Source: Paeniglutamicibacter psychrophenolicus (GTDB taxonomy: Bacteria; Actinomycetota; Actinomycetes; Actinomycetales; Micrococcaceae). From it: a DNA stretch of 64,000 nt. Within the stretch, counting starts at the first letter, position 1. Every line of letters begins with the position of its first letter. The position numbers and the translations under genes are program-made. The notes under the pieces were generated by a model that worked only from the letters and a program-made list of their open reading frames with translations, searched no databases and was not told where the DNA came from. Positions 31,365 to 47,986 of the stretch are shown here, piece by piece. The stretch covers positions 1 through 64,000 of the forward strand of contig NZ_JAUSSH010000004.1 in NCBI RefSeq assembly GCF_030812255.1, given 5' to 3'.

Positions 31365-32705
31365 TCAGCGCAGCGGATTGAAGTGCTGCATCACCGCCGG
31401 GGTCGATTCCCCGGTGATCGAGGCGGCCAGCATCTTGCCGGTCAGCGGGCCCAGCGCCACGCCCCACATGCCGTGGCCGCCGGCCACGTGCACGCGGTTC
31501 GAGCGGGTGGCCCCGATCAGCGGCAGCCCGTCGGTGGTGCAAGGCCGGGAACCGACCCATTCCTCCTGCCGGTCCTCCCAGTTGATGCCGGTGAACAGCG
31601 GGGAGGCCGCGGCGACGATGGCCTCGATGCGCTTGGGCTCCAACGGGTGGTCGGCATCGCGGAACTCCATCGTGCCGGCCACCCGGAACCTGTCGCCCAG
31701 CGGGGTGCAGGCCACGCGCTGGGCGGGGAAGTAGATCGGGTGGGTCGGCATGACCTCGGGAACCACGGTGAAGGAGTAGCCGCGGCCGGCCTGGACCACG
31801 CGCTTGACGCCGAACTTCCTCGCGAGCCTGCCCAGCCAGGCGCCGGTGGCGATGACCACCGCGTCGGCGCCCTGGGTGCGTCCGTGGACGTCGACGACCT
31901 CGACCCCGTGGGCGTGTTCGCGGATGTCGGCGACCTCGAAGTCGGTGGTGATCTGCCCGCCGCGGGCGATGACCGAGTCGGCCAGGGAGTCCATGAACTT
32001 GGGCGGGTTGATGAAACGCTGGTGGTGGATCGCGACACCGGCCTTGACGCCGTCGCCGAGGGTGGGTTCCATGGCACGGATGTCCGCGGCGTCCAGCAGG
32101 TCGAATTCGACCTGGCCGCCGGAGGCGCGGATGCCCTCGAGCTCGTGCAGCAGCCCGTCGCGGTCCTTGAGGTTCTTGAAGCCGGTCAGGAACGGTTCGG
32201 CGGGCTTGGTCGGTTCGGAAACGCCGGTGCCCAGGGTCGTGGTGCCGCCGCCGTTGCCGGGGGTGCCCCCGCCGACGGCGGCGTGGTCCCGGCCGATCCT
32301 GGTGACGGCGTTGGCCTCGGAGATCTCGTCGAAGGCGTCCAGCCCGGTGGCACCGATCTCGCTGAACACGGCCATGGCCTCGCGCCACTTGCCCGGGGTG
32401 CAGTGCCGGGCGAAGCCGAGCAGGAAGCGGATCAGCGAGGGCTTGGCCGAGAGCGGGATGTACAGCGGGGAGGCCGGATCGAACATGGTCTTCAGCCCAT
32501 AGGTGAGCACCGAGGGTTCGCTCAGCGGCAGCGTGAGGGCGGGGGTCAGCCAGCCGGCGTTGCCCCACGATGACCCGGCGGCGACGCCGTCGCGGTCCAC
32601 CACGGTGACGTTGACACCGCGTTCCTGGAGGTACCAGGCGGTGGCGAGCCCCACCATGCCCGCACCGATGACGACCACGTTTTCCGGCGTCTGCGTATTG
32701 CTCAT
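31365..32705 (-). CDS. dadA: D-amino acid dehydrogenase (DadA family), copy 2, next to xsc
   Basis: A 446-residue FAD enzyme, collinear with the product at 143-1420 (same VVIGAGMVGLATAWYL fingerprint, same GSRPCTTDGLPLIG and GGHGMWGVALGPLTGKM motifs). It carries an extra ~22-residue segment around residue 135 with a Gly/Thr-rich loop (VGGGTPGNGGGTTTLGTG), absent from copy 1. It would oxidise D-amino acids, typically D-alanine to pyruvate, at the membrane. It lies 166 bp downstream of xsc on the same strand, beyond a strong hairpin. With an alanine racemase encoded beside the taurine aminotransferase, it could regenerate pyruvate consumed in taurine deamination; that is inference. The ATG at 32705 starts just ahead of the FAD motif. 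Confidence 0.88.
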   Translation of the reverse strand: MSNTQTPENVVVIGAGMVGLATAWYLQERGVNVTVVDRDGVAAGSSWGNAGWLTPALTLPLSEPSVLTYGLKTMFDPASPLYIPLSAKPSLIRFLLGFARHCTPGKWREAMAVFSEIGATGLDAFDEISEANAVTRIGRDHAAVGGGTPGNGGGTTTLGTGVSEPTKPAEPFLTGFKNLKDRDGLLHELEGIRASGGQVEFDLLDAADIRAMEPTLGDGVKAGVAIHHQRFINPPKFMDSLADSVIARGGQITTDFEVADIREHAHGVEVVDVHGRTQGADAVVIATGAWLGRLARKFGVKRVVQAGRGYSFTVVPEVMPTHPIYFPAQRVACTPLGDRFRVAGTMEFRDADHPLEPKRIEAIVAAASPLFTGINWEDRQEEWVGSRPCTTDGLPLIGATRSNRVHVAGGHGMWGVALGPLTGKMLAASITGESTPAVMQHFNPLR

Positions 32706-32784
32706 TGTTCGCTCCAATCCTTGTGCTGTCTCCCGCGGTGCACCTCGTTGTGCGGCGGCGGAAGTGAATCTCTGGGGGATGCAA

Positions 32785-32841
32785 GCGGGGGAAGGCGAGG
32801 CAAGCGGGCACCGCGGTGCCCCCTGCCTTGCCCTCCCCCGC
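32785..32841 (-). terminator. Long GC hairpin after xsc
   Basis: Imperfect stem spanning 57 bp: GCGGGGGAAGGC and AGGCAAGCGGGCACC on the left pair with GGTGCCCCCTGCCT and GCCCTCCCCCGC on the right with a 2-nt apex. It lies 31 bp past the xsc stop and before dadA, and would end or attenuate the xsc transcript. Confidence 0.7.
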
Positions 32842-32871
32842 ATCATTGCTGCCCGGGGTTGCCTTCCGGGT

Positions 32872-34677
32872 TTAGACGTAGTCCTTGTACTTCTCCAGAT
32901 GGCGGACCGGGGTGGACAGCGCGTCGCGGCGGAACGGGTCGCCCAGCTCGCGGGTGCACATGACCTCGATGACGGTGGTCTTGCCGTCGACCATCTGGGC
33001 GTTCAGGGCTTCCTTGAGCGCGGCACCGACGTTCTCCAGCTTGTCCACCACGATGCCCTCGGCACCCATGGAACGGGCCATCTCGGCGAAAGACTCGCCG
33101 TTGTCCAGCTCCCCGGCGATGAAGCGGCGGTTGTAGAACTCGACCTGGTTCTTCTTCTCGGCGCCCCACTGGCGGTTGCGGAAGACGACCGCGGTGACCG
33201 GCAGGTCGTGGCGGACCGCGGTGAGGACCTCGCCCATGCTCATGGCCCAGGCGCCGTCGCCTGCGTAGGCGATGGCCGGGCGGTGCGGGGCCGCGGCCTT
33301 GGCGCCGATGATGGTCGGCAGCGCGTAGCCGCAGTTGCCGAAGGACATCGGGGCGAAGAAGCTGCGCGGCTTTTCGAAGCGCAGGTAGCTGTGGGCCACG
33401 GAGTTGATGTTGCCGATGTCGGTGGAGATCATCACGTCTTCCGGCATGGCGTTTTCCAGTTCGCGCAGCACCTGGCGCGGGTGCAGCCAGTTGCCTTCCT
33501 CGCCCTTGGCCTCCTCGATGACATCGAGGGAGTACTCGTCCTTCTCGTGGGTCCAGGCGGAAAGCTCCTGCTCCCAGGCGTCCTTTTCGGCCTTGATGTT
33601 CGCGGCGCGCTCGGCCTTGGTGGCGTCCGAGGCGAGCTCGGTGCCCTCGAGGCGCTTGACCAGTTCGATGGCCACGGCCTTGGCGTCGCCGGTGATGCCC
33701 ACGGAGATCTTCTTGACCAGTCCGAGCTTGGTGTGGTCCGCGTCGATCTGGATGATCTTGGCCTCGGTGGGCCAGTAGGCCTGGCCGTACTGCGGCAGGG
33801 TGCCAAACGGGCCAAGCCGGGTGCCCAGGGCGATGACGACGTCCGCCTCGGAGATCAGCTTCATGCCGGCCTTGGATCCCTGGTAGCCCAGCGGACCGGC
33901 CCAGAGCGGGTGGCTGGCGGGGAAGGAGTCGTTGTGCTGGTAGCTGTTGACCACCGGTGCGCCCAGGCGCTCGGCCAGGGCCTTGGCTTCCTCCACGCCG
34001 TCGGCCATGACCACGCCGCCGCCGGAGACGATAACCGGGTTCTTGGCGGTCTTGAGCAGCTCGATGGCCTCGTCGAGGGACTTGGTGCCGCCGGCACCGC
34101 GGTCCACGCGGCGGGGGGCCGGGATCTCGGTGATGGATTCGCCGTAGAAGTAGTCGCGCGGGATGTTCAGCTGGGTCGGGCCGTTTTCGCTCATGGCGCG
34201 GTCGAAGCAGCGGGCGGTGAATTCGGCCATGCGGTTCGGGTGGGTGACATGGCCCTGGTACTTGGTGAATTCCTGGAACATCGGCAGCTGGTTGGCTTCC
34301 TGGAAGCCGCCCAGGCCGATGGTGTTGGTTCCGGCTTCCGGGGTGATGATCACAACCGGGCTGTGGGCCCAGTAGGCGGCGGCGATGCCGGTGACGCAGT
34401 TGGAGATACCGGGGCCGTTCTGGCCGATGACCACGCCGTGGCGGCCGGAGGCACGTGCATAGCCGTCGGCCATGTGGGCGGCGCCCTGTTCGTGGACGAC
34501 CGGAACCAGGCGGATGCCGGCCGGGGCGAAGATATCCATGGCGTCCATGAAGGCAGAGCCCATGATGCCGAAGATATCGGTGACGTCGTTGGACACCAGC
34601 GTCTCAACGAAGGCTTCCGACGACGTCATCTTCTGCGCGCCCTTGACGACCTCGCGGGATGTGGCCTTTTCAGTCAT
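32872..34677 (-). CDS. xsc: Sulfoacetaldehyde acetyltransferase
   Basis: A 601-residue thiamine-diphosphate enzyme that converts sulfoacetaldehyde and phosphate to acetyl phosphate and sulfite, the desulfonation step in taurine and isethionate breakdown. The N-terminal Pyr domain has the activating Glu at E63 in VVHEQGAAHMADGYAR; the C-terminal PP domain has the ThDP motif GDGAWAMSMGE (near residue 470), ending with VVFRNRQWGAEKKNQ. The overall pattern, with IGQNGPGISN and LNIPRDYFYGE, matches Xsc rather than glyoxylate carboligase or acetolactate synthase. The ATG at 34677 has AAGGAG 8 nt upstream. It is divergent from an iclR gene, with a good promoter in the gap. The acetyl phosphate would go to the Pta encoded at 44222. 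Confidence 0.93.
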   Translation of the reverse strand: MTEKATSREVVKGAQKMTSSEAFVETLVSNDVTDIFGIMGSAFMDAMDIFAPAGIRLVPVVHEQGAAHMADGYARASGRHGVVIGQNGPGISNCVTGIAAAYWAHSPVVIITPEAGTNTIGLGGFQEANQLPMFQEFTKYQGHVTHPNRMAEFTARCFDRAMSENGPTQLNIPRDYFYGESITEIPAPRRVDRGAGGTKSLDEAIELLKTAKNPVIVSGGGVVMADGVEEAKALAERLGAPVVNSYQHNDSFPASHPLWAGPLGYQGSKAGMKLISEADVVIALGTRLGPFGTLPQYGQAYWPTEAKIIQIDADHTKLGLVKKISVGITGDAKAVAIELVKRLEGTELASDATKAERAANIKAEKDAWEQELSAWTHEKDEYSLDVIEEAKGEEGNWLHPRQVLRELENAMPEDVMISTDIGNINSVAHSYLRFEKPRSFFAPMSFGNCGYALPTIIGAKAAAPHRPAIAYAGDGAWAMSMGEVLTAVRHDLPVTAVVFRNRQWGAEKKNQVEFYNRRFIAGELDNGESFAEMARSMGAEGIVVDKLENVGAALKEALNAQMVDGKTTVIEVMCTRELGDPFRRDALSTPVRHLEKYKDYV

Positions 34678-34766
34678 TACAAGTCTCCTTCGTGGATCAA
34701 GACGTCGCAATCACGCAAAGTCTCAAAAAATGATTCGAACTGCTCCCATAAACGGGATTGATGACA

Positions 34767-34796
34767 AAGCTATGCGACCCAACTCACATCCGTCAA
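34767..34796 (-). promoter_or_regulatory. Promoter of xsc
   Basis: On the minus strand TTGACG (34796-34791), 18 bp, TAGCTT (34772-34767), close to the housekeeping consensus. It gives a leader of about 80 nt before the xsc ATG at 34677. The IclR gene diverges from the same gap. Confidence 0.6.
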
Positions 34797-34803
34797 GCCC
34801 CTA

Positions 34804-34840
34804 TTTCATTTATTCTTCGTGCTGATACGATTTAATGAAA
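34804..34840. promoter_or_regulatory. Inverted repeat over the iclR promoter
   Basis: Perfect 7-bp arms TTTCATT (34804-34810) and AATGAAA (34834-34840), 23 bp apart. A plausible -10 TACGAT (34826-34831) for iclR lies between them, so binding here would block iclR, and possibly xsc from the adjacent promoter. Confidence 0.35.
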
Positions 34841-34853
34841 CTTCGCACAACGG

Positions 34854-35708
34854 ATGATTGGATCGATCATGGAAAATCTCACGGAACCGGATCTCGGGCC
34901 CGCGGGTGCCGTCCAGGGCGAAACACCGGCCCTGCGCCTCTTCGCACTGCTGGAGCTGATCACCACCCGCGACCAGCTCTTCACCCTGCAATCCCTGGTG
35001 GACCAGACGGGGCTTCCCAAGCCGACCCTGCACCGCATGCTGCAACAACTCGAGGGCGCCAACCTGCTGACCCGCCAGTCCGACGGCCGGCACTACGGCA
35101 CCGGTTCGCGCATGCGCCGCATGGCCGAGGACGTGCTGCTCAACGACACCCGGCACGGCACCCGGCACGCCATACTGCGCGGACTGGTCGATGAAATCGG
35201 CGAAAGCTGCAACATCACGGCCCTGTCCGGCAACGAGGTCATCTACCTGGACCGCGTGGAAACCAACGAGCCGCTGCGCGTGTACCTGGGCCCCGGTTCC
35301 CGGGTGCCGGTGCATTGCTCGGCCAGTGGCAAGTTGATCCTCGCCCAATTCGGCCCCACCCAGCGCGAACGCGTGCTGACCAGCGGACCGCTGCAGCGCT
35401 TCACCGCGCACACGCTCACCGACAAGACGGAAATCGAGGCCGAGCTGACCCAGATCCGGCGCAACGGCTACGCCGAGGACCGCCAGGAATACCTGGACGG
35501 GCTGGTCTGCCTGGCTGTGCTGGTCCCGAACCCGGCAGGCCGTTCCAACCTTTGCGTCGCGGTGCAGGCCCCGATGATGCGCAAGAGCTCGGCGGACCTG
35601 CTCACCTTGCTGCCGGCCCTGCGCCGGGCCGCCGAGAGCATCTCGCGTCTCGAGGACCACGCGGATCTGGGCTCTCCGGAGTCCGAGCCGATCGCGGCAG
35701 GGTGGTGA
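34854..35708 (+). CDS. IclR-family transcriptional regulator
   Basis: A 284-residue regulator with an N-terminal winged helix (ALRLFALLELITTRDQLF, then TLQSLVDQTGLPKPTLHRML) and a C-terminal IclR effector domain (ITALSGNEVIYLDRVET, PVHCSASGKLILAQF, and GYAEDRQEYLDGLVCLAV, in which the ligand-binding Gly-Tyr and Asp-Glu positions of the family are seen). It is divergent from xsc with a shared 176-bp gap, so xsc is the most likely target, with sulfoacetaldehyde or another intermediate as inducer. The gene overlaps or nearly abuts the cobS-like gene, forming an operon of regulator, ATPase, VWA protein and DUF1801. Starts at 34854 and 34869 are both possible. Confidence 0.9.
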   Translation: MIGSIMENLTEPDLGPAGAVQGETPALRLFALLELITTRDQLFTLQSLVDQTGLPKPTLHRMLQQLEGANLLTRQSDGRHYGTGSRMRRMAEDVLLNDTRHGTRHAILRGLVDEIGESCNITALSGNEVIYLDRVETNEPLRVYLGPGSRVPVHCSASGKLILAQFGPTQRERVLTSGPLQRFTAHTLTDKTEIEAELTQIRRNGYAEDRQEYLDGLVCLAVLVPNPAGRSNLCVAVQAPMMRKSSADLLTLLPALRRAAESISRLEDHADLGSPESEPIAAGW

Positions 35709-35713
35709 ACCGG

Positions 35714-36700
35714 ATGAGCCACCAAACACCCGGGCTCGCGGCCCAGGAGCTGGTTTCGGTCCGCGAGATATTCGGCATTGACAGCGAGGCGCGCGCGCCG
35801 CGGTTCCTCGAGGCCACCGAGCATGTCCCGGCCATCGACCCGGCCTACCGCTTCAACCCCGATGTCACCCTGGCGATCCTGGCAGGGTTCACCCACAACA
35901 GCCGGGTGATGGTCCAGGGGCTGCACGGCACCGGGAAGTCCACCCACATCGAGCAGGTCGCCGCCCGGCTGAACTGGCCGCTGATGCGGGTGAACCTGGA
36001 TGGCCACATCAGCCGCCTGGATTTGGTCGGCAAGGACACCGTCGTGATCCAGGACGGTGCACCTGCCACCCAGTTCCAGGAGGGAGTGGTGCCCTGGGCG
36101 ATGATCCAGCCGATGGCGCTGGTCTTCGACGAATACGATGCCGGCCGCCCCGATGTCATGTTCGTCATCCAGCGGCTGCTGGAGCGCGACGGCGGCTTCA
36201 CGCTGCCGGACCAGAACCGGGTCATCCGCCCGCACCCGCACTTCCGGCTCTTCGCCACCGCCAACACCGTCGGGCTGGGCAACCTCAATGGGCTCTACCA
36301 CGGGGTGCAGCGGCTGAACCACGCCCAGCTGGACCGCTGGAACATCGTCGCGGCACTGGACTACCTGCCCGTGGCCGACGAGGTCGGCATCGTGGCCGCC
36401 CGCGTCCCGGACCTGGCACAGAAGCCCTCCGGAATGGAACTGATCCGCTCCATGGTGCAGGTTGCCAACCTCACCCGGGACGGCTTTGCCGCCGGGGACA
36501 TCTCCACCCTGATGTCCCCGCGCACCGTGATCACCTGGGCGGAGAACATCTCCATCTTCCGCGATCCCGCGCTGGCTTTCCGGCTCTCCTTCATCAACAA
36601 GTGCGACGAGGCCGAGCGCTTCATCATCTCCGAGTACTACCAGCGCGTCATGGCATGCGAGCTCGAGGAGTCCTACGCGCTCGTTCCGGCCGGGGCCTAG
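35714..36700 (+). CDS. CobS-like MoxR-type AAA+ ATPase
   Basis: A 328-residue AAA+ protein with Walker A GLHGTGKST (69-77), Walker B ALVFDEYDAGRPD, sensor-1 RLFATANTVGLGN and a CobS-like N-terminal segment (VREIFGIDSEARAPRFLEAT). CobS is the ATPase of aerobic cobaltochelatase CobNST, but no cobN or other cobalamin gene is seen here, so the protein may work with the following VWA protein as a MoxR/VWA chaperone on another client. A GTG at 35705 overlapping the iclR stop (GTGA) is an alternative start; the ATG at 35714 has AGGGTGG at about 10 nt. Confidence 0.88.
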   Translation: MSHQTPGLAAQELVSVREIFGIDSEARAPRFLEATEHVPAIDPAYRFNPDVTLAILAGFTHNSRVMVQGLHGTGKSTHIEQVAARLNWPLMRVNLDGHISRLDLVGKDTVVIQDGAPATQFQEGVVPWAMIQPMALVFDEYDAGRPDVMFVIQRLLERDGGFTLPDQNRVIRPHPHFRLFATANTVGLGNLNGLYHGVQRLNHAQLDRWNIVAALDYLPVADEVGIVAARVPDLAQKPSGMELIRSMVQVANLTRDGFAAGDISTLMSPRTVITWAENISIFRDPALAFRLSFINKCDEAERFIISEYYQRVMACELEESYALVPAGA

Positions 36701-36720
36701 CGGACACCGTCCGGAACGCC

Positions 36721-38436
36721 ATGGACACCACGGGAATCACCGAGCGCCGCGCCCAGGAAATCCGCCAGCTGTGCGCAGCCTCCCTGCGCGCGCTCGGCGC
36801 CGACCCGCGCCTGGAGCTGCTCGGCTCCCGGCCATACCGGGGCACCACGGTGCTGCCGTTCAACGCGCCGCACCTCTACCCGCCCTCCCCCGGCGCGGCG
36901 TTCGAGTCCTTCCGCGGCGCCAGCGACGGGATGGCGTTGCGCACCCTGCATTCGGACACCGCCGCCCACCTGGCCCTGCTCCCCGAGAATCCCAGCGCCC
37001 GACTGGTCTTCGAGGTGCTCGAGCAATTCCGTTGCGAATCCCTGGCCACCCTGCCGGGGGTCCTTTCCAACCTGCGGGCCCGGCACGAGGCATGGTCCAA
37101 GGAATACCTGGCCTCGGGCCTGGCCGAAACCTCGCTGGGCATGCTGCTGTACACGATCCTGCAGGTCACCCGTTCGCGGATCACCGCCGAACCGGTGGTC
37201 GCCGAATCCGAGGACATGATCGAGGCGACCCGCGCGAACCTGTCCCCGGTGCTGGGCCCGCTTCTTCCCGCCCTGCGCCGGAACAAGCTCAGCCAGTCCA
37301 ATTTCGCCTCGCCGGCGTTGGAGATCGCACGTCTTGTCGCCGACGCCGTCCATGCCCTGGAATCCCGGGCACCTGCCCGCAATGCGCCGAAGGCGAAGGA
37401 GTCCAAGGCGGCGGAGTTCTCGCTGCTTGTGGACGTCGAGCGGGAGGCCGCGCTGATCGGGAGAACCTGCACGGGAGCCAGCGGCACGCTGGCGGACGCG
37501 GCCGGCGGCTACACGGTCTTCACTCGTGCCTATGACAAGGAATCGGCGGCCCGGGACCTGGTCCGGGAGGACCTGTTGCGCGGCTACCGCGAACGCATTG
37601 CCGCCCGGGTGCACACCGAGGCGGTGAACACGGCGCTGCTGGCCAAAAGGCTCCAGGGGCTGCTCTGCGTCCCGGAGCGCTCCGGGCACGATTCCGGCGC
37701 GGAGGAAGGCCTGCTCGATGGTTCCCGGCTGGGCCAGCTGATTGCCTCCCCCACCGAGTCCAGGCTGTTCAAGACCGAACGCTTCGAGCCGGTGGCCGCC
37801 GCGGCCGTCACGTTCCTGGTCGACTGCTCCGGGTCGATGAAGCAGCACGCCGAGGGGCTCGCGGCATTCCTGGATGTGCTGGTGCGGGCGCTGGAACGCA
37901 TCGAGGTGCCCTGCGAGGTCCTGGGCTATACCACCGGGGCGTGGAACGGCGGGCGCGCGCTGAAGGATTGGCGCCGCGCCGGCGCCCCGCCGAATCCCGG
38001 GAGGCTCAACGAGCTGTGCCACCTGGTCTTCAAGGACGCCGCGACCTCGTGGCGCACCGGGCGCCCCGGGCTTGCGGCGATGCTCAAGTCCACGCTGTAC
38101 CGCGAGGGCGTCGACGGGGAAGCCGTGCGCTGGGCGCTGTCCCGGCTCGGGGCACGGGGCGAGGACCGCAGGATCCTGGTGGTGGTCACCGATGGCAGCC
38201 CGTCGGACGGCGCCACGGCCAACGCCAACGACGAAAACTACCTGCAGCATGATTTGGCCGCGGTGCTGCGCGGGGCCGAGGCCGCGGGCTCCACCATCCT
38301 GGGCCTGGGGTTGGGCCTGGACATGAGCGGGTATTTCCGCCGCAGCACCATCCTGGATGCCGGGCGGCTCGGCGGCTCCGAATCCGTGCGCGACCTGCTG
38401 GACCTGCTTCAGCGCTCGCTGCGCCCCGGGCGCTGA
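36721..38436 (+). CDS. CobT-like VWA-domain protein
   Basis: A 571-residue protein with a C-terminal von Willebrand A domain: the MIDAS motif VDCSGSMKQ near residue 367, and a later VVVTDGSPSDG loop that completes the metal site. The N-terminal 300 residues resemble cobaltochelatase CobT (ALRTLHSDTAAHLALLP, IFEQ-like VFEVLEQFRCESLA). It starts 20 bp after the cobS-like gene, so the two are co-expressed and should form a MoxR/VWA complex. In known CobNST the pair loads cobalt through CobN, absent here. What it acts on is unknown; position next to xsc makes a role in the sulfonate pathway a hypothesis only. Confidence 0.87.
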   Translation: MDTTGITERRAQEIRQLCAASLRALGADPRLELLGSRPYRGTTVLPFNAPHLYPPSPGAAFESFRGASDGMALRTLHSDTAAHLALLPENPSARLVFEVLEQFRCESLATLPGVLSNLRARHEAWSKEYLASGLAETSLGMLLYTILQVTRSRITAEPVVAESEDMIEATRANLSPVLGPLLPALRRNKLSQSNFASPALEIARLVADAVHALESRAPARNAPKAKESKAAEFSLLVDVEREAALIGRTCTGASGTLADAAGGYTVFTRAYDKESAARDLVREDLLRGYRERIAARVHTEAVNTALLAKRLQGLLCVPERSGHDSGAEEGLLDGSRLGQLIASPTESRLFKTERFEPVAAAAVTFLVDCSGSMKQHAEGLAAFLDVLVRALERIEVPCEVLGYTTGAWNGGRALKDWRRAGAPPNPGRLNELCHLVFKDAATSWRTGRPGLAAMLKSTLYREGVDGEAVRWALSRLGARGEDRRILVVVTDGSPSDGATANANDENYLQHDLAAVLRGAEAAGSTILGLGLGLDMSGYFRRSTILDAGRLGGSESVRDLLDLLQRSLRPGR

Positions 38437-38511
38437 GCCCGCGACACCCCGCGGAGCTTCACCGGACCGGGGAGGTACGCTGGGCCATCCAGCACCATCG
38501 CGAGGAGACCC

Positions 38512-38934: not shown

Positions 38935-39136
38935 ACACCGCACCGTTCTCGAACGGCCGCGGTGGTGGCTCGATCGATATAGCACGGGGACGGCAGCTTG
39001 GCCCGCGACATACGGACGTCGTAAAGGTGAACGCCAGGTTTACCGCCTCGTTCGGTACCGGAACTGCTCCCGGGCAGCCGGTGCGTGGTCCTGCCATGAG
39101 CGTGGTCCTGCCTTGAGGGTGGGCCTGTCCTCAACC
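38935..39136. other. Non-coding stretch with a short direct repeat
   Basis: A gap of 202 bp before a pseudogene. A 13-bp direct repeat GCGTGGTCCTGCC (39083-39095 and 39100-39112) is 17 bp apart in phase. Together with the broken gene that follows, it suggests local sequence decay. Confidence 0.4.
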
Positions 39137-39645: not shown

Positions 39646-39744
39646 ACTCGACAACCCGAACCACGTGGCCGGTTGGCACCAGGATTTCTTCTCCACTGGC
39701 CGGCCAAAGCCTGCGGGCAGGACCGGCATGGCCCGCACCCAGGC

Positions 39745-41208
39745 TCAGGTTCCGCAGAACGTCCGGTAGGGGGCGAAGCCTTCCGGGGCCGCGGCGGCGA
39801 ACCGCTCGAGGCCGGGGCGCTCCTGGAAAGGTGTGCTCAGCGCAGCCAAAAGCTGCGAGAGCGGCTCCTGGTCGCCGTCGACGGCGGCGGCGAGCGCCTC
39901 CTCGACGAGGTGGTTCCGCGGGATGTAGACGGGGTTCGTCCGGTCCATCAGGCCAGCGTCCGGTTCCAGCGCCCGCCAGCGCTGAGCCCAGGCCTCGAAC
40001 GCGGCCGGGCCAGGGAACATGGAGCACGCGGACTCGGCGTCACCGCGCGCGGCCGTGCCCAGATTTCGGAAGAAGGACGTGTAGTCCACGCGGGCCTCCT
40101 GCAGGAGGGTGAACAATTCCCCGGTCAGTGACGTGGCCGAGTCATCGTCCAGGCCCTCGGCCAGGCCGAGCTTGGCTTTCATTCCGGCCAGCCACGCGGC
40201 GCTGTACCGGGTGTGGAAGGCGCCCAGGGATTCCTGTGCCAAGGCAACAGCCTGGTCCTGGTCCTCGTGGAAGAGTGGCAGGAGTGCCTCCGCGAGCCGG
40301 GCGAGGTTCCACTGGGCCACGTGGGGCTGGTTGCCGTAGGCATAGCGCCCGGCTTCGTCGATCGAACTGTAGACCGTGGCAGGATCGAAAACGTCCATGA
40401 AGGCGCACGGGCCGTAGTCGATGCCCTCCCCCGAGATGGTCATGTTGTCCGTGTTCATGACGCCGTGGATGAAACCCACCAGCATCCATTGGGCCACCAG
40501 CGATGCTTGGGCCGCGACCACCGCTTCGAACAGGGCGAGATAGGGGTTCTGGCCCTCGGCCGCCCCGGGATGGTGGCGTGTCATCGCATGGTCGGCCAGG
40601 CGGCGCAGCAGGTCCGCGTCGTCCATGGCCCGGGCATATTGGAAGCTTCCCACCCTCAAGTGGCTGCTTGCCACCCGGCTCAGCACCGCCCCGGGCAGCT
40701 TGGTCTCGCGGCTCACCGACCGTCCCGTCGCCACCACGGCCAGGGAGCGCGTGGTGGGAATGCCCAGGGCGTGCATCGCCTCGCTGATCACGTACTCACG
40801 GAGCATCGGGCCGAGGGTGGCAAGGCCGTCACCACGGCGGGCAAACGGCGTGCGTCCGGAACCCTTGAGGTGGAGGTCCCACAGGCGGCCCCCGGCATCG
40901 ACAATCTCGCCGAGCAGCAGCGCCCGGCCATCTCCCAGGCGCGGCGAGTAGGAGCCGAACTGGTGGCCTGCGTAGCCCTGCGCCACCGGGGTGGCGCCAT
41001 GGGGCAGCCCGGTGCCGATCAGCAGCCTCAGTCCCTCGGCATTGCCCAGGGACTCGGGGTCGAGGCCCAGCTCCTCTGCCAGCGGCTCGTTGAGCACGAC
41101 CAGTCTCGGATCCGGAGCCTGTTCCGCCTGCCAGGGAACGGCCAGCTCGGGAAGCTCACGGGCAAATTGGCCGTCCAGGAAGACGGTGGATTGTGCATCG
41201 ACACTCAT
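39745..41208 (-). CDS. selO: SelO-family protein adenylyltransferase (YdiU)
   Basis: A 487-residue pseudokinase-fold enzyme that transfers AMP from ATP to protein Ser/Thr/Tyr residues (known for SelO, linked to redox stress). Diagnostic motifs: [66 protein letters not shown] and DYGPCAFMD, with the metal-binding Asn and Asp in the last two. The C-terminal FCGT retains the cysteine equivalent to the selenocysteine of eukaryotic SelO. Length is normal. It lies downstream of the yeiH-like gene but after a strong terminator, so it is probably separate. Confidence 0.94.
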
Positions 41209-41325
41209 CTTTCAAGCGTACCTTCGATATGGTGCGGTCCGCGGGGAATGACGGAAGCAGGCAACTGCCACGGCGCCGAAGACGCCCCCTTGGCCTCCGG
41301 CGAATCACCACACCGGATAACAGGG

Positions 41326-41367
41326 AAGGGCCCGTCCGCCGGAAACCGTTCCGGCAGACGAGCCCTT
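41326..41367 (-). terminator. Hairpin terminator after the yeiH-like gene
   Basis: Left arm 41326-41344 (AAGGGC, CCGTC, CGCCGGAA) pairs with right arm 41349-41367 (TTCCGGC, AGACG, AGCCCTT), a ~19-bp stem with few mismatches and a 4-nt loop. It lies 26 bp beyond the stop at 41393 and upstream of selO. Confidence 0.75.
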
Positions 41368-41392
41368 CGGCTCGGTTCTTGCGGCCCCTGCC

Positions 41393-42469
41393 CTACAGCT
41401 GCAGCAGCAGGACTCCCGCGTAGCCCAGGCCGGCGATCAGCGCCCAGGCGCACAGCGCCATGAGGATCGAGGCGCCCTTGGAGGCGAAGAGCTGGCGGAC
41501 CCGCACCGCGGAACCCAGGCCGAAGAGCGCCGCGGCCAGCACGATGTCCTGCACGATCGTGGCGGCGTCCAGCAGCTCGGCCGGAACCTCGAAGATCGAG
41601 CGCACGGCCACCAGGGCCACAAACCCGATGATGAACCCGGGAATGATCGGGGGCAGCTTCAGCCCCTCGTGCGTGGAGCCGGTCCCCTGCGTGCGGCGGC
41701 TGATGATGCCCGCGGCGGCAACCATCGGGGCCAGGGTCAGCACGCGGGTGAGCTTGATGACGATGGCGATGGCCAGCGCGGAGGCGCCGGCGGTCTGCGC
41801 GGTGGCCACGACCTGCCCCACGTCATGCACCGAGGCGCCGACCCACTGCCCGAAGGCCTCCGGGCCCAGCCCCAGCGGAACCATCAGCAGCGGCAGCACG
41901 GCAATGGCCAGGGTGCCGCACAGGGTCACCAGCGCCACCGGGATCACGGTGTCCTCGTCCTTGGAGCGGCGCACCGCGCTCATCGCGCCGATGGCCGAGG
42001 CACCGCAGATGGAAAAGCCCGTGGCAACCAGCAACGGCTGGTCCCCGGGCAGCTTGAACGCCTTGCCCAGCAGGTAGGTTCCGCCGAAGGCCAGCAGCAC
42101 GATGGCCACGACCACCACGAAGGTCAACCAGCCCAGGTCCAGGACATCGACGATGCTCAGCTTCAGGCCCAGCAGCACGATGCCGACGCGCATGAGCTTC
42201 TTCCCGGCGAATCCCAGGCCCTTCTGCAGGGGGCCGGCCACCAGGGAGGACAGGCCCGGGATGTTGGCCGACAGCACGCCGAGCACCACCGCGGTGGTCA
42301 TCACGGGGACGGAAGGGAACAGCAGGTGCACCGCGAAGGACAGCGGGACGGCCACGGCACAGGCGGCCAGTCCGGCCCAGTGCGCCACGACCCAGGAGCG
42401 GGCCTTGCCCGTGACCGAGGTACCCGGCCCCTTGGACTGCACCACCGGTTCGTGTGTTTGGTTGGCCAT
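41393..42469 (-). CDS. YeiH-family membrane protein (putative sulfite/sulfate exporter)
   Basis: A 358-residue protein with about ten transmembrane helices, of the UPF0324/YeiH family. Typical segments are VLGVLSANIPGLSS, GLGFAGKKLMRVGIVLLGLKLS, the conserved GFSICGASAIGAMSAV loop and the WVGASVHDVGQVVATAQT segment, both characteristic of the family. Family members near xsc are annotated as sulfite or sulfate exporters; removing toxic sulfite released by Xsc would be the role here (inference from context). It follows the permease-pta-tpa genes on the same strand, but after a perfect hairpin, so it may be transcribed separately or by read-through. Confidence 0.85.
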   Translation of the reverse strand: MANQTHEPVVQSKGPGTSVTGKARSWVVAHWAGLAACAVAVPLSFAVHLLFPSVPVMTTAVVLGVLSANIPGLSSLVAGPLQKGLGFAGKKLMRVGIVLLGLKLSIVDVLDLGWLTFVVVVAIVLLAFGGTYLLGKAFKLPGDQPLLVATGFSICGASAIGAMSAVRRSKDEDTVIPVALVTLCGTLAIAVLPLLMVPLGLGPEAFGQWVGASVHDVGQVVATAQTAGASALAIAIVIKLTRVLTLAPMVAAAGIISRRTQGTGSTHEGLKLPPIIPGFIIGFVALVAVRSIFEVPAELLDAATIVQDIVLAAALFGLGSAVRVRQLFASKGASILMALCAWALIAGLGYAGVLLLQL

Positions 42470-42498
42470 GAGGGGGAAGCTCCTTGGAAAAGAGTCGC

Positions 42499-42531
42499 GT
42501 TCGTGGTGCGGCCTGCGGCCGCACCACGAAC
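42499..42531 (-). terminator. Perfect hairpin terminator after the APC permease
   Basis: Perfect 15-bp arms GTTCGTGGTGCGGCC (42499-42513) and GGCCGCACCACGAAC (42517-42531) with a 3-nt loop. It lies 47 bp past the permease stop and just upstream of the exporter gene. Confidence 0.8.
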
Positions 42532-42577
42532 CACGCGCTGGATATGTTTACTATTGTGCCGCGTCTTGCTCCGGGCG

Positions 42578-44137
42578 TCAGTTTGCCGCCGAGGCACCGC
42601 TGGCGGACGGGGCCTTGAGTTTGGTGCCCTCCGGCCTCGGGGCACCGAGCACCAGGATGTCGACCTGTTCGTCGGACAGGGTCTTGTTGTGCTTGCGGCG
42701 CATCATGAAGAACACCACGCCCAGCACGGTCCAGACGGCCAGTGCGGACATGGATTCGACGCCCAGCACGCCCGGCGAGCCCGGGACCAGCAGCAGGGCC
42801 ATGAACACCAGCGCCGTGACCGCGCCCAGCGCGCTGAGCACCTTCTTGGAGGTCGAGCGGGTGCCTTCCAGGTCGCCCGCCCGCTCAACGGAGTTGGTCG
42901 GGCGGAAGATCTTGAACGCGCACAGGCAGGTGTAGAGGTAGGCGACGGTCACTCCGACCGCGGACATGTCCACCACCCAGGTCAGTGCGGCACGACCGAA
43001 CCACGGGCTGACCAGGCATACGGCGCCAACAAAGATGACTCCGACATACGGGGTCTTGTACTTGGGGTGCAGCCGGGCGAACACCTTCGGGACCATCTGG
43101 GCCCGGCCCATGCCCAGCAGGATGCGGCTGGCCGAGACGTAGAAGCCGTTCAGTCCGGTGCTCACGCCCATGGTGATTCCGATGGTCAGCAGCAGCAGGC
43201 CCGAGCCGCCCAGCACCCCGGTCAACGCATCCGCGGTGCCCCACGCGGAGTCCCCGGCAACCAGGGCCTCCCAGGGTGCGGCCATCGCCACCGCGGCAAT
43301 CATGGCCGCGTAGAGCAAGGCAGCTGCCAGCAGGGCCAGCACAATCAACTTCATGGCCTTGGCCGGAGGGAAGTCGAACTCCTCCGCGGCCTGCGGGACG
43401 TTGTCGAATCCGATGAAGGCCCAGGGCGCAATCGCGACGATCGCAGCTATCGCGGCGATGGGATTGACATTCTCCGGGAATGCCGGAAGCGCGTTGGAAA
43501 AGACGACCTGCGGGCTGGCGATGACGGCCACCAGGATGCAGGCGACCGCGACGAGCATGATCACGCAGGCAATGAACTGGATGCGGCCCGACAGTGCGGT
43601 GCCGCGGATGTTCAGGTAGGCGAAGACCGCCAGGGCCACCATCGAGATGATGACTTCCACCAGGTAGACGTCCCAGCCGGCCACGGTGTAGAGGTAGCCC
43701 TGCTGCACCACGTCGGGCATGAGCTTGCGGAAGAGCAGCGCCAGCGCCGAGGCATTCAGCGCCACGATGCAGGTGTACCCCAGGGTCAGGAACCAGCCGC
43801 AGAAGAAGGCGTGGGTCCGGCCGAAGCCGACCAGCGCGAAGGCCAGTTCGCCGCCGGAGACCGGGAACGACTTGATCAGGAACCCGTAGCTGACGGCGAT
43901 GAGCACCATCAATGCGCCGCCGATCAGGAAGCCGGAGACCGCCCCGAGCGGTCCACCCATGGCCAGCCAATCGGTGGGCAGGATGAAGGCTCCCCACCCC
44001 ACCGCGGAGCCCAGGGCGATGGCCCAGACCCAGTGGGCCTTGAGCGTCTTTTCCATGCGCTCGGGCTGGCCGCCGTCGAAACCTGGCGAAGCCGATGCCA
44101 TGGGACTAGTCACCGTCTTGTCTGTTGTGGCTTTCAT
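42578..44137 (-). CDS. APC-superfamily permease, candidate taurine importer
   Basis: A 519-residue protein with about twelve transmembrane helices and a hydrophilic C-terminus. The start of the core, WAIALGSAVGWGAFILPTDW, resembles the AAT/EAT ethanolamine-type APC branch; WAFIGFDNVPQAAEEFDFP is the helix-6 region. It lies directly downstream of pta and tpa on the same strand (85 bp from pta), with only short gaps, and no TauABC or TRAP uptake genes are in the window. Hence a taurine or related amine uptake role is inferred. The ATG at 44137 has GAGG 6 nt upstream; an in-frame ATG at 44176 lacks one. Confidence 0.82.
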   Translation of the reverse strand: MKATTDKTVTSPMASASPGFDGGQPERMEKTLKAHWVWAIALGSAVGWGAFILPTDWLAMGGPLGAVSGFLIGGALMVLIAVSYGFLIKSFPVSGGELAFALVGFGRTHAFFCGWFLTLGYTCIVALNASALALLFRKLMPDVVQQGYLYTVAGWDVYLVEVIISMVALAVFAYLNIRGTALSGRIQFIACVIMLVAVACILVAVIASPQVVFSNALPAFPENVNPIAAIAAIVAIAPWAFIGFDNVPQAAEEFDFPPAKAMKLIVLALLAAALLYAAMIAAVAMAAPWEALVAGDSAWGTADALTGVLGGSGLLLLTIGITMGVSTGLNGFYVSASRILLGMGRAQMVPKVFARLHPKYKTPYVGVIFVGAVCLVSPWFGRAALTWVVDMSAVGVTVAYLYTCLCAFKIFRPTNSVERAGDLEGTRSTSKKVLSALGAVTALVFMALLLVPGSPGVLGVESMSALAVWTVLGVVFFMMRRKHNKTLSDEQVDILVLGAPRPEGTKLKAPSASGASAAN

Positions 44138-44221
44138 TTGAACCTCGTTCTTGCACGGCGACGCCTGCGTCACCATGGATGGGGGTTTGTCGGTTCGCCC
44201 TGGCGGGCGGACCTGTCGGGG

Positions 44222-45235
44222 TCAAGATTTCTGGGATTGCATCATGCTGATCAGTGAAACGTTCACGATGTCCGCCACGGTTGCGCCGCGGGAGAGATCG
44301 TTGATCGGTGCGGCCAAGCCCTGCAGGATCGGCCCATAGGCCTGGGCGCCGGCGAGGCGTTGGGTGATCTTGTACCCGATGTTTCCGGCGGCCAGGTTGG
44401 GGAAGATGAAGACGTTGGCGTGCCCGGCCACCGCGGAACCCGGCGCCTTGGAAACGGCCACCGATTCAAGCAGCGCCGCATCGAATTGCAGTTCCCCGTC
44501 GATCTGCAGCGCCGGCTCGGCCGCCCGCGCCAGCGCCGTGGCCGTGCGGACCATCGAGATGCTTTCGTGCTCGGCGGAACCGGCGGTGGAGAAGGAGAGC
44601 ATCGCGACCGCCGGCTCCTGCCCGGTGAGCGTGGCGAAGGTGCGCGCGGTGGCGGTGGCGATGTGCGCCAATTGGGTGGAATCGGGGGTGGGGATCACCG
44701 CGCAGTCGCCGTAGCCCACGTAGCGTCCGTCGTTCAGCCGCATCAGGAACGAGGAGGAGATGGTGCCGCCCGCCTCGCGGGTTCCCACGACCCGAAGGGC
44801 CGCACGCAAGACCTCGGAGGTGGGCCGGGTGGCCCCGGCGACGGCTGCCGCCGCCAGACCCGCCGGGACCGCGGCGACGGCCAGGAACAGCGGGTCATCC
44901 ATCCACCCGGCGGTCTTCCCCGGCCCGAGCCCGGCGACAACCTCGGCGAGGTGGGCCCCGGCGGCGCTGTCCCTCAGCTCGGCGGTGTCCATGACGGTGG
45001 TGGCGTCCGTGAGCGTGACGCCCTCGGTGAGCGCGAGGGCGTTGATGCCCTCGCGCCCGCCGACCAGGATGACCTCCAGGCCGATCTCGTTGAGCACGCC
45101 GGCGGCGGTGATGGCCCGCGCGTCGTGCCCGTCGGCCAGGATGATGCGGCCCGAGGTGCCGGCCCAGTGGCCCGCGGTGAAGCGGGCCAGCATGTTTTCG
45201 TCGACCCCCTGGGGCCGCACCGGTGCGATGGTCAT
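44222..45235 (-). CDS. pta: Phosphate acetyltransferase (short form)
   Basis: A 337-residue enzyme of the PTA_PTB fold, without the N-terminal DRTGG/P-loop extension of the long form. It exchanges acetyl phosphate and CoA to acetyl-CoA, the step after Xsc. Conserved parts include GRIILADGHDARAITAA at the N-terminus, GTISSSFLMRL, the GYGDCAVIPTPDSTQLA strand, AMLSFSTAGSAEHESISMV, the ELQFDAAL region and the C-terminal VFIFPNLAAGNIGYKITQRL. It begins 20 bp after the tpa-like gene on the same strand, so the two form an operon. No ackA is adjacent, unlike the usual pta-ackA pair, in line with a function in sulfonate use rather than overflow metabolism. Confidence 0.93.
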   Translation of the reverse strand: MTIAPVRPQGVDENMLARFTAGHWAGTSGRIILADGHDARAITAAGVLNEIGLEVILVGGREGINALALTEGVTLTDATTVMDTAELRDSAAGAHLAEVVAGLGPGKTAGWMDDPLFLAVAAVPAGLAAAAVAGATRPTSEVLRAALRVVGTREAGGTISSSFLMRLNDGRYVGYGDCAVIPTPDSTQLAHIATATARTFATLTGQEPAVAMLSFSTAGSAEHESISMVRTATALARAAEPALQIDGELQFDAALLESVAVSKAPGSAVAGHANVFIFPNLAAGNIGYKITQRLAGAQAYGPILQGLAAPINDLSRGATVADIVNVSLISMMQSQKS

Positions 45236-45255
45236 CTGCTGTGCTTCCCTGGTTC

Positions 45256-46647
45256 CTAGACCGAGGCCAGGGCGGCGGGGGCCTTGAGGTAGCTGTCCAC
45301 CGCGCCCATGACGTGGTCGACCTTGTTCAGCAGGTCGTCGAGCACGTCCTGGTCGGCGACCAGCGGCGGGGAGAGCACCAGCATCGTCGCGCCGCGGTTG
45401 TCCGGGCGGGTGATGAGGTTGACCTCGCGCATGGCCTGCGGCATGATGCGGGTCAGCAGCGCCTTGGAATGCTCCGCGGTCAGCTCGCGGCCCTCGCTGC
45501 GGCTGCCCATGAGCTCGATGGAGTAGAAGAATCCGGTGCCGCGGTATTCCTTGATGCCGTCGTGCGCCGAGAGGATCGCGTCCAGCCCGTTCTGGAAGTA
45601 GGGCTCGAGGCTGCGCACGTTGCCCACGACGTTTTCTTCCTTCAGCGCGGTCAGGTTGGCGACGGCGGTGGCCGTGGCCACCGGGTGCCCGCCCCAGGTG
45701 GCCCCGTGGGTGAAGACCCCGGCCAGCGGCGAGGCGAGCATGGAATCGGCCAGCGGCTTGCGGATGATGACCCCGCCCAGCGGTGCATAGCCGGAGGTCG
45801 AGCCCTTGGCGAAGGTGATCATGTCCGGGACCACACCGTACTTGATGCTGCCGAACCACTCGCCGAGGCGGCCGAAGCCGGTGATGACCTCGTCGGCAAC
45901 CAGCAGGATGCCGTGCTCGTCGCAGATGGAACGCAGTTCCTGCCAGTAGCCCGCCGGCGGGACCAGGGCGCCGCGGGAGTTCTGCACCGGCTCGGCGAAG
46001 AGCGCGGCGATGGTGTGGGCGCCTTCGCGGGCAATGACCTCGCGGATGGCCTGCACGGAGGGCAGGTCAGCGGCGGAGCCGCCTTCCGGGACGACCTCGC
46101 CCAGGGTGTTCGGGACGTGGAAGACCCCGGGCATCAGCGTGCCGAAGGCTTCCTTGTAGGCCGGGATGCCGGTGACGGCCAGGGCGCCGAGGGTGGTGCC
46201 GTGGTAGGCCATGTCGCGGGCGATGATCTTGGTGCGCTCGGGCTGCCCCTGGCTGCGGTGGTACTGGCGGGCGAACTTGATGGCCGATTCGACGGCCTCG
46301 GAGCCGGAGTTCACGAAGAACACGACGTCCAGGTCGCCCGGGGCCAACTCGGCGATGGCGGTGGCGGCATCGACGGCGGCCGGGTGCGCCGAGCCCCAGT
46401 TGGTCCAGTAGGCCAGCTTGGACATCTGCTCGTACGCGGCCTTCGGGATGTCCTGGCGTCCGTGGCCGATGTTGGCGCAGAAGAGTCCGGCCAATCCGTC
46501 CAGGAACTTGTTGCCGTCTTCGTCGAAGAGGTAGCTTCCCTCGCCCCGGGTGATGATCGGCAGGTTCGGGTCGTTCCACACCTGGCCGGTGGTGAAGTGC
46601 GGGTAGAGATGCCGCTGTGCACGATTGCGGATATCTGAGTTGGTCAC
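45256..46647 (-). CDS. tpa: Class III aminotransferase, probable taurine-pyruvate aminotransferase
   Basis: A 463-residue PLP enzyme of the omega-aminotransferase group. Motifs: FFVNSGSEAVESAIKFARQYH, AYHGTTLGALAVTG, ADEVITGFGRLGEWFG with the PLP-ring Asp, and the Schiff-base Lys near residue 280 in TFAKGSTSGYAPLGG. Family members act on taurine, beta-alanine or putrescine with pyruvate as acceptor. The choice of taurine rests on context: pta follows by 20 bp and xsc is in the same region. The GTG at 46647 is preceded by GGAGGGG 6 nt upstream; extra upstream codons are unlike the family. Products would be sulfoacetaldehyde and L-alanine. Confidence 0.85.
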   Translation of the reverse strand: MTNSDIRNRAQRHLYPHFTTGQVWNDPNLPIITRGEGSYLFDEDGNKFLDGLAGLFCANIGHGRQDIPKAAYEQMSKLAYWTNWGSAHPAAVDAATAIAELAPGDLDVVFFVNSGSEAVESAIKFARQYHRSQGQPERTKIIARDMAYHGTTLGALAVTGIPAYKEAFGTLMPGVFHVPNTLGEVVPEGGSAADLPSVQAIREVIAREGAHTIAALFAEPVQNSRGALVPPAGYWQELRSICDEHGILLVADEVITGFGRLGEWFGSIKYGVVPDMITFAKGSTSGYAPLGGVIIRKPLADSMLASPLAGVFTHGATWGGHPVATATAVANLTALKEENVVGNVRSLEPYFQNGLDAILSAHDGIKEYRGTGFFYSIELMGSRSEGRELTAEHSKALLTRIMPQAMREVNLITRPDNRGATMLVLSPPLVADQDVLDDLLNKVDHVMGAVDSYLKAPAALASV

Positions 46648-46788
46648 GAGACCCCTCCATTCAAAGTTTTCCTGACAGGACCGGCAGCAACCTCGCTGCG
46701 GTCCTCGCCACACATGGCTTGCTGTGGTGTGTATCACTCTGCCCGTATGCTGGGCCCTTTCCCAGACCCAAATTGGCGTCCCTTTTTA

Positions 46789-46804
46789 GGTACCAGTTAC
46801 CTAC
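46789..46804 (-). promoter_or_regulatory. GGTA-rich repeat between alr and tpa
   Basis: On the minus strand directly after the alr stop the sequence reads GTAGGTAACTGGTACCTA, with GGTA repeated and a GGTACC palindrome. It lies about 145 bp upstream of the tpa start. MocR/TauR-type regulators bind direct or inverted repeats of comparable size, and one is encoded upstream, but no consensus can be proved here. Confidence 0.25.
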
Positions 46805-47986
46805 CTACAGGTAGATCCGTGGCACCCTGGACCCGATGCGGGTCAGCACCTCGTAGGGAATGGTCCCGGCGGCCGCGGCCCACGCCTCCACGTGCGGTTC
46901 CCCGGAGTCCCCGGGGCCAAAAAGCAGTGCCGCATCCCCGGCCGCGACATCGTCATCGCCCACGTCAACCACGAACTGGTCCATGCAGACCCGGCCCAGC
47001 ACCCGGTAGGCCCGGTTGCCGATGAGCACCGGGCCCGCGGAGCTGGCACTGCGGAAGACCCCGTCGGCGTAGCCCAGCGGCACCACCGCCAGCGTGGTCT
47101 GCCGTGCGGTGGATTCGGTGTGCCCGTAGGAAACCCCGGCGCCGGCCGGAGCGCGCTTGGTTTGCACGACCGCCGCGCCCAGGCTCATGGCCGGGCGCAA
47201 CGCGGGACCGTTCCCGCGGTCAGCCTCGGCCAGCGGGTTCACCCCGTAGACGGCCAGGCCGGGGCGGACCATGTCGAAGTGCGCCTCGGGGCTCGCCAGG
47301 GTCGCGGCGGAGTTGGCGATGTGGCACAGCGTCGGCTCCAGCCCCAGGGCGCGGGCCGTGGCGATCGCCTGCCGGAAGACCTCCAGCTGCGCGGGAAGCG
47401 ATGGGTGTCCCGGCTCGTCCGCGCAGGCCAGGTGGGACCAGATGCCCAGCACCCGGATCCTGCCTTCGGTTTCGAGCTCCCGGGCCGCGGCACAGAGCCC
47501 GGGCCAGTCCCCGGGCGTTGCCCCGCCGCGCCACATCCCGGTGTCGATCTTCAGGTGGATCCGCGGCACGGCGCCGACCTGTTGCCCGGCATCCGCGATT
47601 TCCCGCAGCTGGCCCAGCGAGTAGGCGGCCAGCTCGATGTCCTCGGCGATCGCCCGGCCGTAGGGTGCACCGGGTGCCGACAGCCAGGAGAAGAGCGGGG
47701 CGGTGATCCCGGCCGCGCGCACCGCGAAGGCCTCCTCGAGCACCGCGGTGCCCAGGTAGTCGGCGCCGCCCTCCAACGCGGCCCGGGCCGCGGGCACGAT
47801 GCCGTGTCCGTAGCCGTCGGCCTTGAGCACGGCCAGGACCTTGGCGCCCTTCGCGACCTCGCGCAGGGCCCGCACGTTGGCGGTGATCGCGGCGGTCTCG
47901 ATGTAGGCCGCGCGTTGCGGCACGAACCCCTCGTCGTTGCGGTAAGCGGATGCGGCGGTGTTCTTGAGCGTGCTTGACCGGTTCAT
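46805..47986 (-). CDS. alr: Alanine racemase
   Basis: A 393-residue fold-type III PLP enzyme interconverting L- and D-alanine. The PLP lysine is K55 in LAVLKADGYGHG; the second catalytic base is Tyr in GVSYGHTESTARQTTLAVVPLGYADG, of which GVSYGHTES holds it. HLKIDTGMWRGG, HIANSAATL and RVCMDQFVVDVG are family signatures. The gene lies directly upstream of tpa on the same strand. In this setting it could convert alanine formed by Tpa into D-alanine for DadA, apart from a wall-synthesis function. Whether another alr exists elsewhere cannot be seen. AAGGAG lies 10 nt before the ATG at 47986. Confidence 0.92.
   Translation of the reverse strand: MNRSSTLKNTAASAYRNDEGFVPQRAAYIETAAITANVRALREVAKGAKVLAVLKADGYGHGIVPAARAALEGGADYLGTAVLEEAFAVRAAGITAPLFSWLSAPGAPYGRAIAEDIELAAYSLGQLREIADAGQQVGAVPRIHLKIDTGMWRGGATPGDWPGLCAAARELETEGRIRVLGIWSHLACADEPGHPSLPAQLEVFRQAIATARALGLEPTLCHIANSAATLASPEAHFDMVRPGLAVYGVNPLAEADRGNGPALRPAMSLGAAVVQTKRAPAGAGVSYGHTESTARQTTLAVVPLGYADGVFRSASSAGPVLIGNRAYRVLGRVCMDQFVVDVGDDDVAAGDAALLFGPGDSGEPHVEAWAAAAGTIPYEVLTRIGSRVPRIYL

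Follow-up and report, generated by a model that had tools for sequence, protein, structure and literature searches.

Gene content of the taurine locus

The 64-kb window analyzed here, i.e., positions 1-64000 of contig C4 (NZ_JAUSSH010000004.1) from the 4.57-Mb, 35-contig genome of Paeniglutamicibacter psychrophenolicus, harbored a predicted taurine dissimilation cluster in which an alanine racemase gene (alr) and the gene of a DAO-family flavin adenine dinucleotide (FAD) oxidoreductase may stand in for the alanine dehydrogenase gene (ald). In the direction of transcription, the minus strand displayed the order MocR regulator–alr–class-III aminotransferase (tpa)–pta–APC permease–YeiH-like exporter–SelO gene; past the SelO gene lay a plus-strand CobS/CobT-like gene pair plus an IclR regulator gene, followed by xsc and the oxidoreductase gene on the minus strand. 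The features were as follows:

31365-32705, minus strand: DAO-family FAD oxidoreductase of 446 amino acids, proposed D-alanine dehydrogenase (PF01266, 204 bits)
32785-32841, minus strand: hairpin in the xsc–oxidoreductase gap, possible attenuator or processing site (fold z-score -4.6)
32872-34710, minus strand: xsc, sulfoacetaldehyde acetyltransferase (TIGR03457, 1025 bits; cut-off 676)
34854-35708, plus strand: IclR-family regulator, divergent from xsc (PF01614 and PF09339)
41393-42469, minus strand: YeiH-like putative sulfate/sulfite exporter (TIGR00698, 117.6 bits; below cut-off 232.6)
42578-44176, minus strand: APC-superfamily amino acid permease, candidate taurine importer (PF13520, 132.7 bits)
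44222-45190, minus strand: pta, phosphate acetyltransferase (PRK09653, 319 bits; cut-off 310)
45256-46737, minus strand: Tpa-like class-III aminotransferase, start uncertain (best family PRK06541, 581.5 bits; cut-off 574)
46762-46771, minus strand: operator-like box TTGGGTCTGG in the alr–tpa gap (pattern match)
46805-47986, minus strand: alr, second alanine racemase, taurine-cluster subfamily (TIGR00492, 300.8 bits; cut-off 168)
48060-48069, minus strand: operator-like box CTGGATCTGG upstream of alr (pattern match)
48109-49620, minus strand: MocR-family regulator, probable TauR counterpart (NF052282, PdxR-type MocR, 367 bits; cut-off 320)

The first-pass annotation had described a taurine pathway composed of xsc, pta, a Tpa-like aminotransferase gene, a candidate permease and a YeiH exporter, with alr directly upstream of the aminotransferase gene and a dadA gene beside xsc. 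This gene order held, with coordinates fitting except for the start of the oxidoreductase gene, and alr did lie directly upstream of the aminotransferase gene on the same strand; the MocR and IclR regulators had been omitted. Family assignments were borne out for xsc, pta and alr, which exceeded their cut-offs (Pta also scored 287 bits on TIGR00651, under the cut-off of 311 for that model); the aminotransferase exceeded the cut-off of PRK06541, and the YeiH-like exporter stayed below its own. Homologues of the Tpa-like aminotransferase with at least 59% identity were present in the same 8 of 100 family genomes as xsc and in none of the xsc-free ones, and taurine would be the substrate of this enzyme. 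Across 81 loci, homologues were found of the MocR regulator in 61, of the YeiH-like exporter in 28 and of the APC permease in 24, nine of the latter being alr-type (see below).

Distribution of alr, ald and the xsc-linked oxidoreductase gene

A scan based on an alignment of five Tpa sequences gave 226 relatives, and the best 80 of these 226 loci were compared together with their 10-kb flanks; the Tpa of G062 (L054), whose stretch contained a stop, was dropped from alignment A1. Within 3.5 kb of tpa, the 80 loci harbored ald (34 loci, ald-type), alr (nine loci, alr-type) or neither (37 loci), and never both. One of the 37 loci with neither had ald farther off, and five ended near tpa at a contig end, among them L132, which gave a short match to ald where it was cut. 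At the family level (100 genomes), the eight xsc-carrying genomes comprised six with MocR–Alr–Tpa–Pta–APC and two with Ald between MocR and Tpa; in the latter two, ald and tpa were on opposite strands, and both the cluster alr and a DAO gene beside xsc were missing. In A. wenxiniae and Paenarthrobacter PH39-S1, the mocR–tpa interval held ald, oriented opposite to tpa, where that of the window holds alr. Two Paeniglutamicibacter species were among the nearest by Tpa. In a quick unrooted tree, eight Brevibacterium loci with neither gene fell together with the alr-type loci in one clade of 18 rows, and a nearby clade displayed MocR–Tpa–Ald–Pta; the simplest history, with a direction that we infer, would be a single ald-to-alr swap after which Brevibacterium lost alr. 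A 58% Tpa homologue on Paenarthrobacter ureafaciens plasmid pCZY (L213) was surrounded by genes of the coenzyme A (CoA)-transferase, enoyl-CoA hydratase and F420 types; ald and a gene of the sulfate exporter family lay at a distance of about 7-8 kb, and this homologue may act on a different substrate.

The cluster alr was the second of two alr copies in the genome: the other, at C8:110277-111368, adjoined tsaE, and its product was 48% identical to the cluster Alr. Two copies were likewise counted in all 10 alr-type genomes tested, while 10 other genomes (Brevibacterium and ald-type) had one copy in nine cases and two in A. wenxiniae. All six alr-type genomes among the 100 of the family, and no others, encoded an Alr with at least 65% identity to the cluster copy; the highest identity elsewhere was 53%. 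The cluster Alr scored 155.5 against the DadX model (cut-off 600). In G074, an xsc-free genome of the same genus, only the other alr and a paralogue of the oxidoreductase gene were found; the cluster alr and the xsc-linked oxidoreductase gene were both missing.

The first-pass claim that a dadA gene lies beside xsc stood insofar as a DAO-family FAD oxidoreductase gene directly follows xsc (its immediate neighbors being xsc and a BNR-repeat gene); the dadA label was too firm, because the best named NCBIfam family, DadA-type PRK00711, gave 195.5 bits against a cut-off of 383, on which Escherichia coli DadA scores 755. The start at 32705 was favored over that at 32846, because the orthologues share a ribosome-binding site plus ATG there. 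Alignment with E. coli DadA covered the greater part of the protein (24% identity; E 4e-30, set of 31 rows), which kept the arginine of the W-x-G-x-R-P motif, a residue usually credited with binding the substrate carboxylate in DAO-family enzymes; the Paracoccus yeei protein taken as TauY had no arginine at that position. A structure predicted from alignment A2 (two window proteins; its first row starting two codons before the likely ATG) had a pLDDT (predicted local distance difference test) score of 33.

The oxidoreductase gene lay directly 3' of xsc in 10 of 12 alr-type genomes versus none of 50 other loci having at least 700 bp after xsc; among five shorter loci outside this count, one was alr-type, with the oxidoreductase gene adjoining xsc. 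A DAO homologue of at least 68% identity was present in all 10 alr-type genomes tested. A paralogue of the xsc-linked oxidoreductase (67-71% identity) was encoded at 143-1420 on the minus strand of the window. A 44% homologue in Rhodococcus pseudokoreensis was located with RidA, Lrp-type regulator and pyruvate dehydrogenase genes. In Pseudomonas aeruginosa, the imino-alanine formed by DadA is converted to pyruvate through deamination by DadY, a Rid-family protein, and an AsnC-type regulator belongs to the locus (PMC9714295). The RidA/Lrp neighborhood in Rhodococcus fits an alanine-type role of the oxidoreductase, being suggestive rather than proof; D-alanine is the proposed substrate.

The absence of ald on which the first-pass annotation had built was true of the window, in which no match to the alanine dehydrogenase C-terminal domain was found, but it did not extend to the contig: the whole-genome check that the same annotation had named returned a true ald at C4:109908-111023 (TIGR00518, 520 bits; cut-off 392). 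This gene was 62 kb from alr, beyond the window and outside the taurine cluster, within which the Tpa-Ald-Xsc-Pta pathway has its ald, and its neighbors included genes of the purS, purQ and purL types as well as one resembling YchJ; a Na+/H+ antiporter gene lay further up. It looks like a general gene, because an ald homologue was found in 93 of the 100 family genomes and xsc in just 8. In 20 genomes (10 alr-type, five Brevibacterium and five ald-type) searched at a threshold of E 1e-50 or better, ald was counted as follows: two copies in each ald-type genome, one in each Brevibacterium genome, and at least one in eight alr-type genomes; none was found in the other two alr-type genomes, Paeniglutamicibacter quisquiliarum and Glutamicibacter soli, at this threshold, a search that distant alanine dehydrogenases and alanine aminotransferases could escape. 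G. soli (G051), rated 100% complete, was also without ald in the 100-genome family survey. The same-genus genome G074 gave neither xsc nor ald, and ald may therefore be dispensable in the genus.

Regulatory features and neighboring genes

The operator-like box was defined as [CT]TGG[AG]TCT[AG][GT] and counted within 300 bp before the match start (about 1% expected). It was found before alr in 7 of 10 loci, the three loci of the A. crystallopoietes group being without it; this count is partly circular, because the pattern was picked after some alr upstream stretches had been viewed. The hits before tpa and the permease gene in ald-type loci are free of that circularity. Before tpa, the box was present in 4/10 alr-type, 8/34 ald-type and 0/36 'neither' loci; before the permease gene, in 3/6 ald-type and 0/18 other loci; and before ald, in 2/34 ald-type loci. 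No box was found before pta (0/57), before the YeiH-like gene (0/28), or within 1.5 kb of the ald at C4:110 kb. The consensus CTGGACYTAA of Rhodobacter capsulatus TauR had one match in the window (with one mismatch) versus 1.87 expected, and nothing useful came of searching for paired CTGG[AT]C repeats.

The box may be an operator for the MocR protein, itself probably the counterpart of TauR. Actinobacterial TauR regulons, according to PMC5320631, contain tauE, tpa, pta, ald, gabP, thiG and pdxS; since these published regulons hold ald, alr would occupy the usual regulon place of ald, and its expression would presumably respond to taurine.

The IclR regulator gene adjoined xsc in 48 of 50 loci with at least 4.5 kb on that side, and one guess from gene order is that IclR governs xsc plus the oxidoreductase gene. 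These two genes were separated by a 166-bp gap containing the hairpin, and their expression may therefore differ; three orthologous gaps gave fold z-scores of -4.9, -1.4 (not significant) and -3.8, and the hairpins in them, clear in two of the three, differ in sequence from this one.

The CobS/CobT-like pair (35315-38436, plus strand) fell short of the cobaltochelatase cut-offs (466 against 559 bits and 253 against 759 bits), and next to the IclR gene it accompanied xsc in 48 of 50 loci with at least 4.5 kb on that side; its role may lie in the maturation or chaperoning of Xsc and not in cobalt chelation. The plus-strand open reading frames of IclR (34854-35708) and CobS (35315-36700) overlapped by nearly 400 bp, with overlapping matches in several relatives, and CobS itself probably begins some way downstream of the start of its open reading frame. 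Near the taurine region, an SfnB/DszC-like sulfur-acquisition flavoprotein was encoded at 53261-54685 on the minus strand (244 bits, below the cut-off of 431).

Pyruvate recycling, alternative explanations and known systems

In the proposed route, Tpa would transfer the amino group of taurine to pyruvate, yielding sulfoacetaldehyde and L-alanine; Xsc would convert sulfoacetaldehyde to acetyl phosphate and sulfite, and Pta would then make acetyl-CoA; the cluster Alr, as a second and dedicated copy, would turn L-alanine into D-alanine, from which the xsc-linked FAD oxidoreductase would regenerate pyruvate plus ammonia, passing electrons probably to the respiratory chain. This DadX/DadA-like arm would have taken over from the nicotinamide adenine dinucleotide (NAD)-linked alanine dehydrogenase of the ancestral cluster one time, in a clade comprising the Paeniglutamicibacter, Glutamicibacter and Arthrobacter crystallopoietes groups. 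We consider this explanation, with a single displacement in a single clade, fairly probable. The view that a racemase and a D-amino-acid dehydrogenase together take over from ald is supported by the comparison of loci: (i) alr and ald never occurred together beside tpa in the 80 loci, (ii) alr was an extra, distinct copy behind a box that is also seen in some ald-type clusters, and (iii) the xsc-linked oxidoreductase gene was found only in alr-type clusters, and two alr-type genomes gave no ald. The replacement proposed by the first-pass annotation is thus favored at the level of the cluster, but it would not be exclusive, the genome keeping one ald.

Several observations weigh against this interpretation. 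The box was missing before xsc (0/58) as well as before tpa of the 'neither' loci, alr and the oxidoreductase gene were 14 kb apart, and the latter was set off from xsc by the hairpin-containing gap. Besides missing the DadA cut-off, the oxidoreductase was outscored on PRK00711 by another oxidoreductase at C2:305826-306992 (214 bits, likewise below the cut-off). Two Glutamicibacter genomes were without the xsc-linked copy, their nearest homologue being of the paralogue type and located 9-11 kb beyond xsc; the paralogue type was also present in other xsc-free genomes, and homologues of about 70% identity occurred without an alr-type cluster and away from xsc in the ald-type A. wenxiniae (71%) and the xsc-free G024 (72%). 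Both alr and ald were missing from the vicinity of tpa in eight Brevibacterium clusters and in many Amycolatopsis ones, and the pathway thus does not require a recycling gene close by. Every alr-type locus fell into the single Tpa clade shared with Brevibacterium, and the associations may therefore count as a single event. Finally, 9 of the 11 other alr-type genomes carried ald elsewhere, as does the present contig.

Pyruvate might instead be recycled by the ordinary ald at C4:110 kb or by general alanine aminotransferases, with alr balancing alanine and D-alanine and the oxidoreductase being unrelated. The full ald in the genome, the wide occurrence of ald in the family and the five Brevibacterium genomes that combine one genomic ald with clusters free of ald or alr beside tpa all agree with this explanation. 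We nevertheless regard it as unlikely: the ald sits among pur-type genes with no box within 1.5 kb, ald was not found in two alr-type genomes, the tsaE-linked alr expected for wall synthesis is present as well, and it would be left unexplained why alr occupies the very interval in which some relatives have ald. It is very improbable that alr and the oxidoreductase gene simply arrived near the cluster once and were kept by descent without functional connection; the confinement of alr-type loci to one Tpa clade is what such linkage would give, but gene order was kept across genera though identity drops (to 65% for Alr and 64-71% for the xsc-linked oxidoreductase), and the xsc-free G074 of the same genus contained neither of these copies.

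A further explanation, in which alr would be a separate matter, makes the xsc-linked oxidoreductase a second entry enzyme producing sulfoacetaldehyde, either TauY-like or an N-methyltaurine dehydrogenase. Alphaproteobacterial clusters do have an FAD oxidoreductase gene directly beside xsc, and tauY of Sinorhizobium meliloti was required for growth on taurine, as stated in PMC4254191. The references used were FAD-binding oxidoreductases of P. yeei and Ruegeria, named TauY by their place beside xsc (in P. yeei, after tauA-type transport genes); both were aligned, the family scan and residue check covered the P. yeei protein, S. meliloti TauY lay outside the comparison, and an S. medicae open reading frame that matched none of the other TauY rows, and was very probably out of frame, was disregarded. 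Both references aligned with the oxidoreductase only at the FAD motif (about 44 residues), and the P. yeei protein had a different best family; a TauY identity was not supported on these grounds. With no NTF2-like gene beside the oxidoreductase gene and the xsc-linked form confined to alr-type clusters among the loci compared, an entry enzyme of either kind appears quite unlikely.

Under the favored reading, i.e., replacement of the cluster ald by the racemase and the D-alanine dehydrogenase, a reason for the swap could lie in energetics. Deamination of alanine with NAD is uphill, and flavin-linked oxidation is not. In this Micrococcales clade, the racemase plus a respiratory D-alanine dehydrogenase, in place of NAD-linked ald, might exert an irreversible pull on the taurine aminotransferase, a proposal to which we give about even credence. 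In transaminase-driven sulfonate breakdown, the recycling of pyruvate has drawn less notice than the other half of the process, and a displaced module would mean that it has two unrelated solutions, one of them linking taurine use with D-alanine and with respiration. A compound that normally serves as a wall precursor, D-alanine would then be a catabolic intermediate; in ald-less species, the racemase/D-alanine dehydrogenase arm would be the main route, and the cluster alr would be a marker for reading taurine pathways in ald-less genomes.

The remark of the first-pass annotation that this variant had not been seen described agreed with the literature covered: no open paper on a taurine cluster with a racemase was found, most subscription journals being uncovered; none of the open papers among the matches listed paired a taurine enzyme with alanine racemase or D-alanine dehydrogenase; the one open paper that brought up both taurine and alanine racemase had the latter just within a cited title; and no open paper on N-methyltaurine turned up.

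Three known systems were compared with the cluster. The Rhodococcus-type Tpa-Ald-Xsc-Pta pathway under TauR shared MocR, Tpa, Pta, YeiH-type exporter and Xsc with it at 40-81% identity (loci L144 and L147), but the present cluster differed in having alr instead of the cluster ald, an APC permease and, mostly, an oxidoreductase gene after xsc. Alphaproteobacterial TauXY clusters resembled it in the FAD oxidoreductase gene adjoining xsc; unlike them, it displayed an alignment confined to the FAD motif, no NTF2-like partner gene (TauX by gene order) and an aminotransferase gene. With DadX/DadA of E. coli and P. aeruginosa, it shared the combination of a second racemase, additional to the housekeeping copy, and a DAO-family FAD enzyme; the differences were that dadA and dadX are adjacent in E. 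coli, that the adjoining regulators here were of the MocR and IclR types, and that the oxidoreductase fell below the DadA cut-off. Taken together, the cluster would represent a new variant of the known taurine pathway, backed by comparison rather than biochemistry, in which a DadX/DadA-like pair takes the place of the ald found in the Rhodococcus-type clusters.

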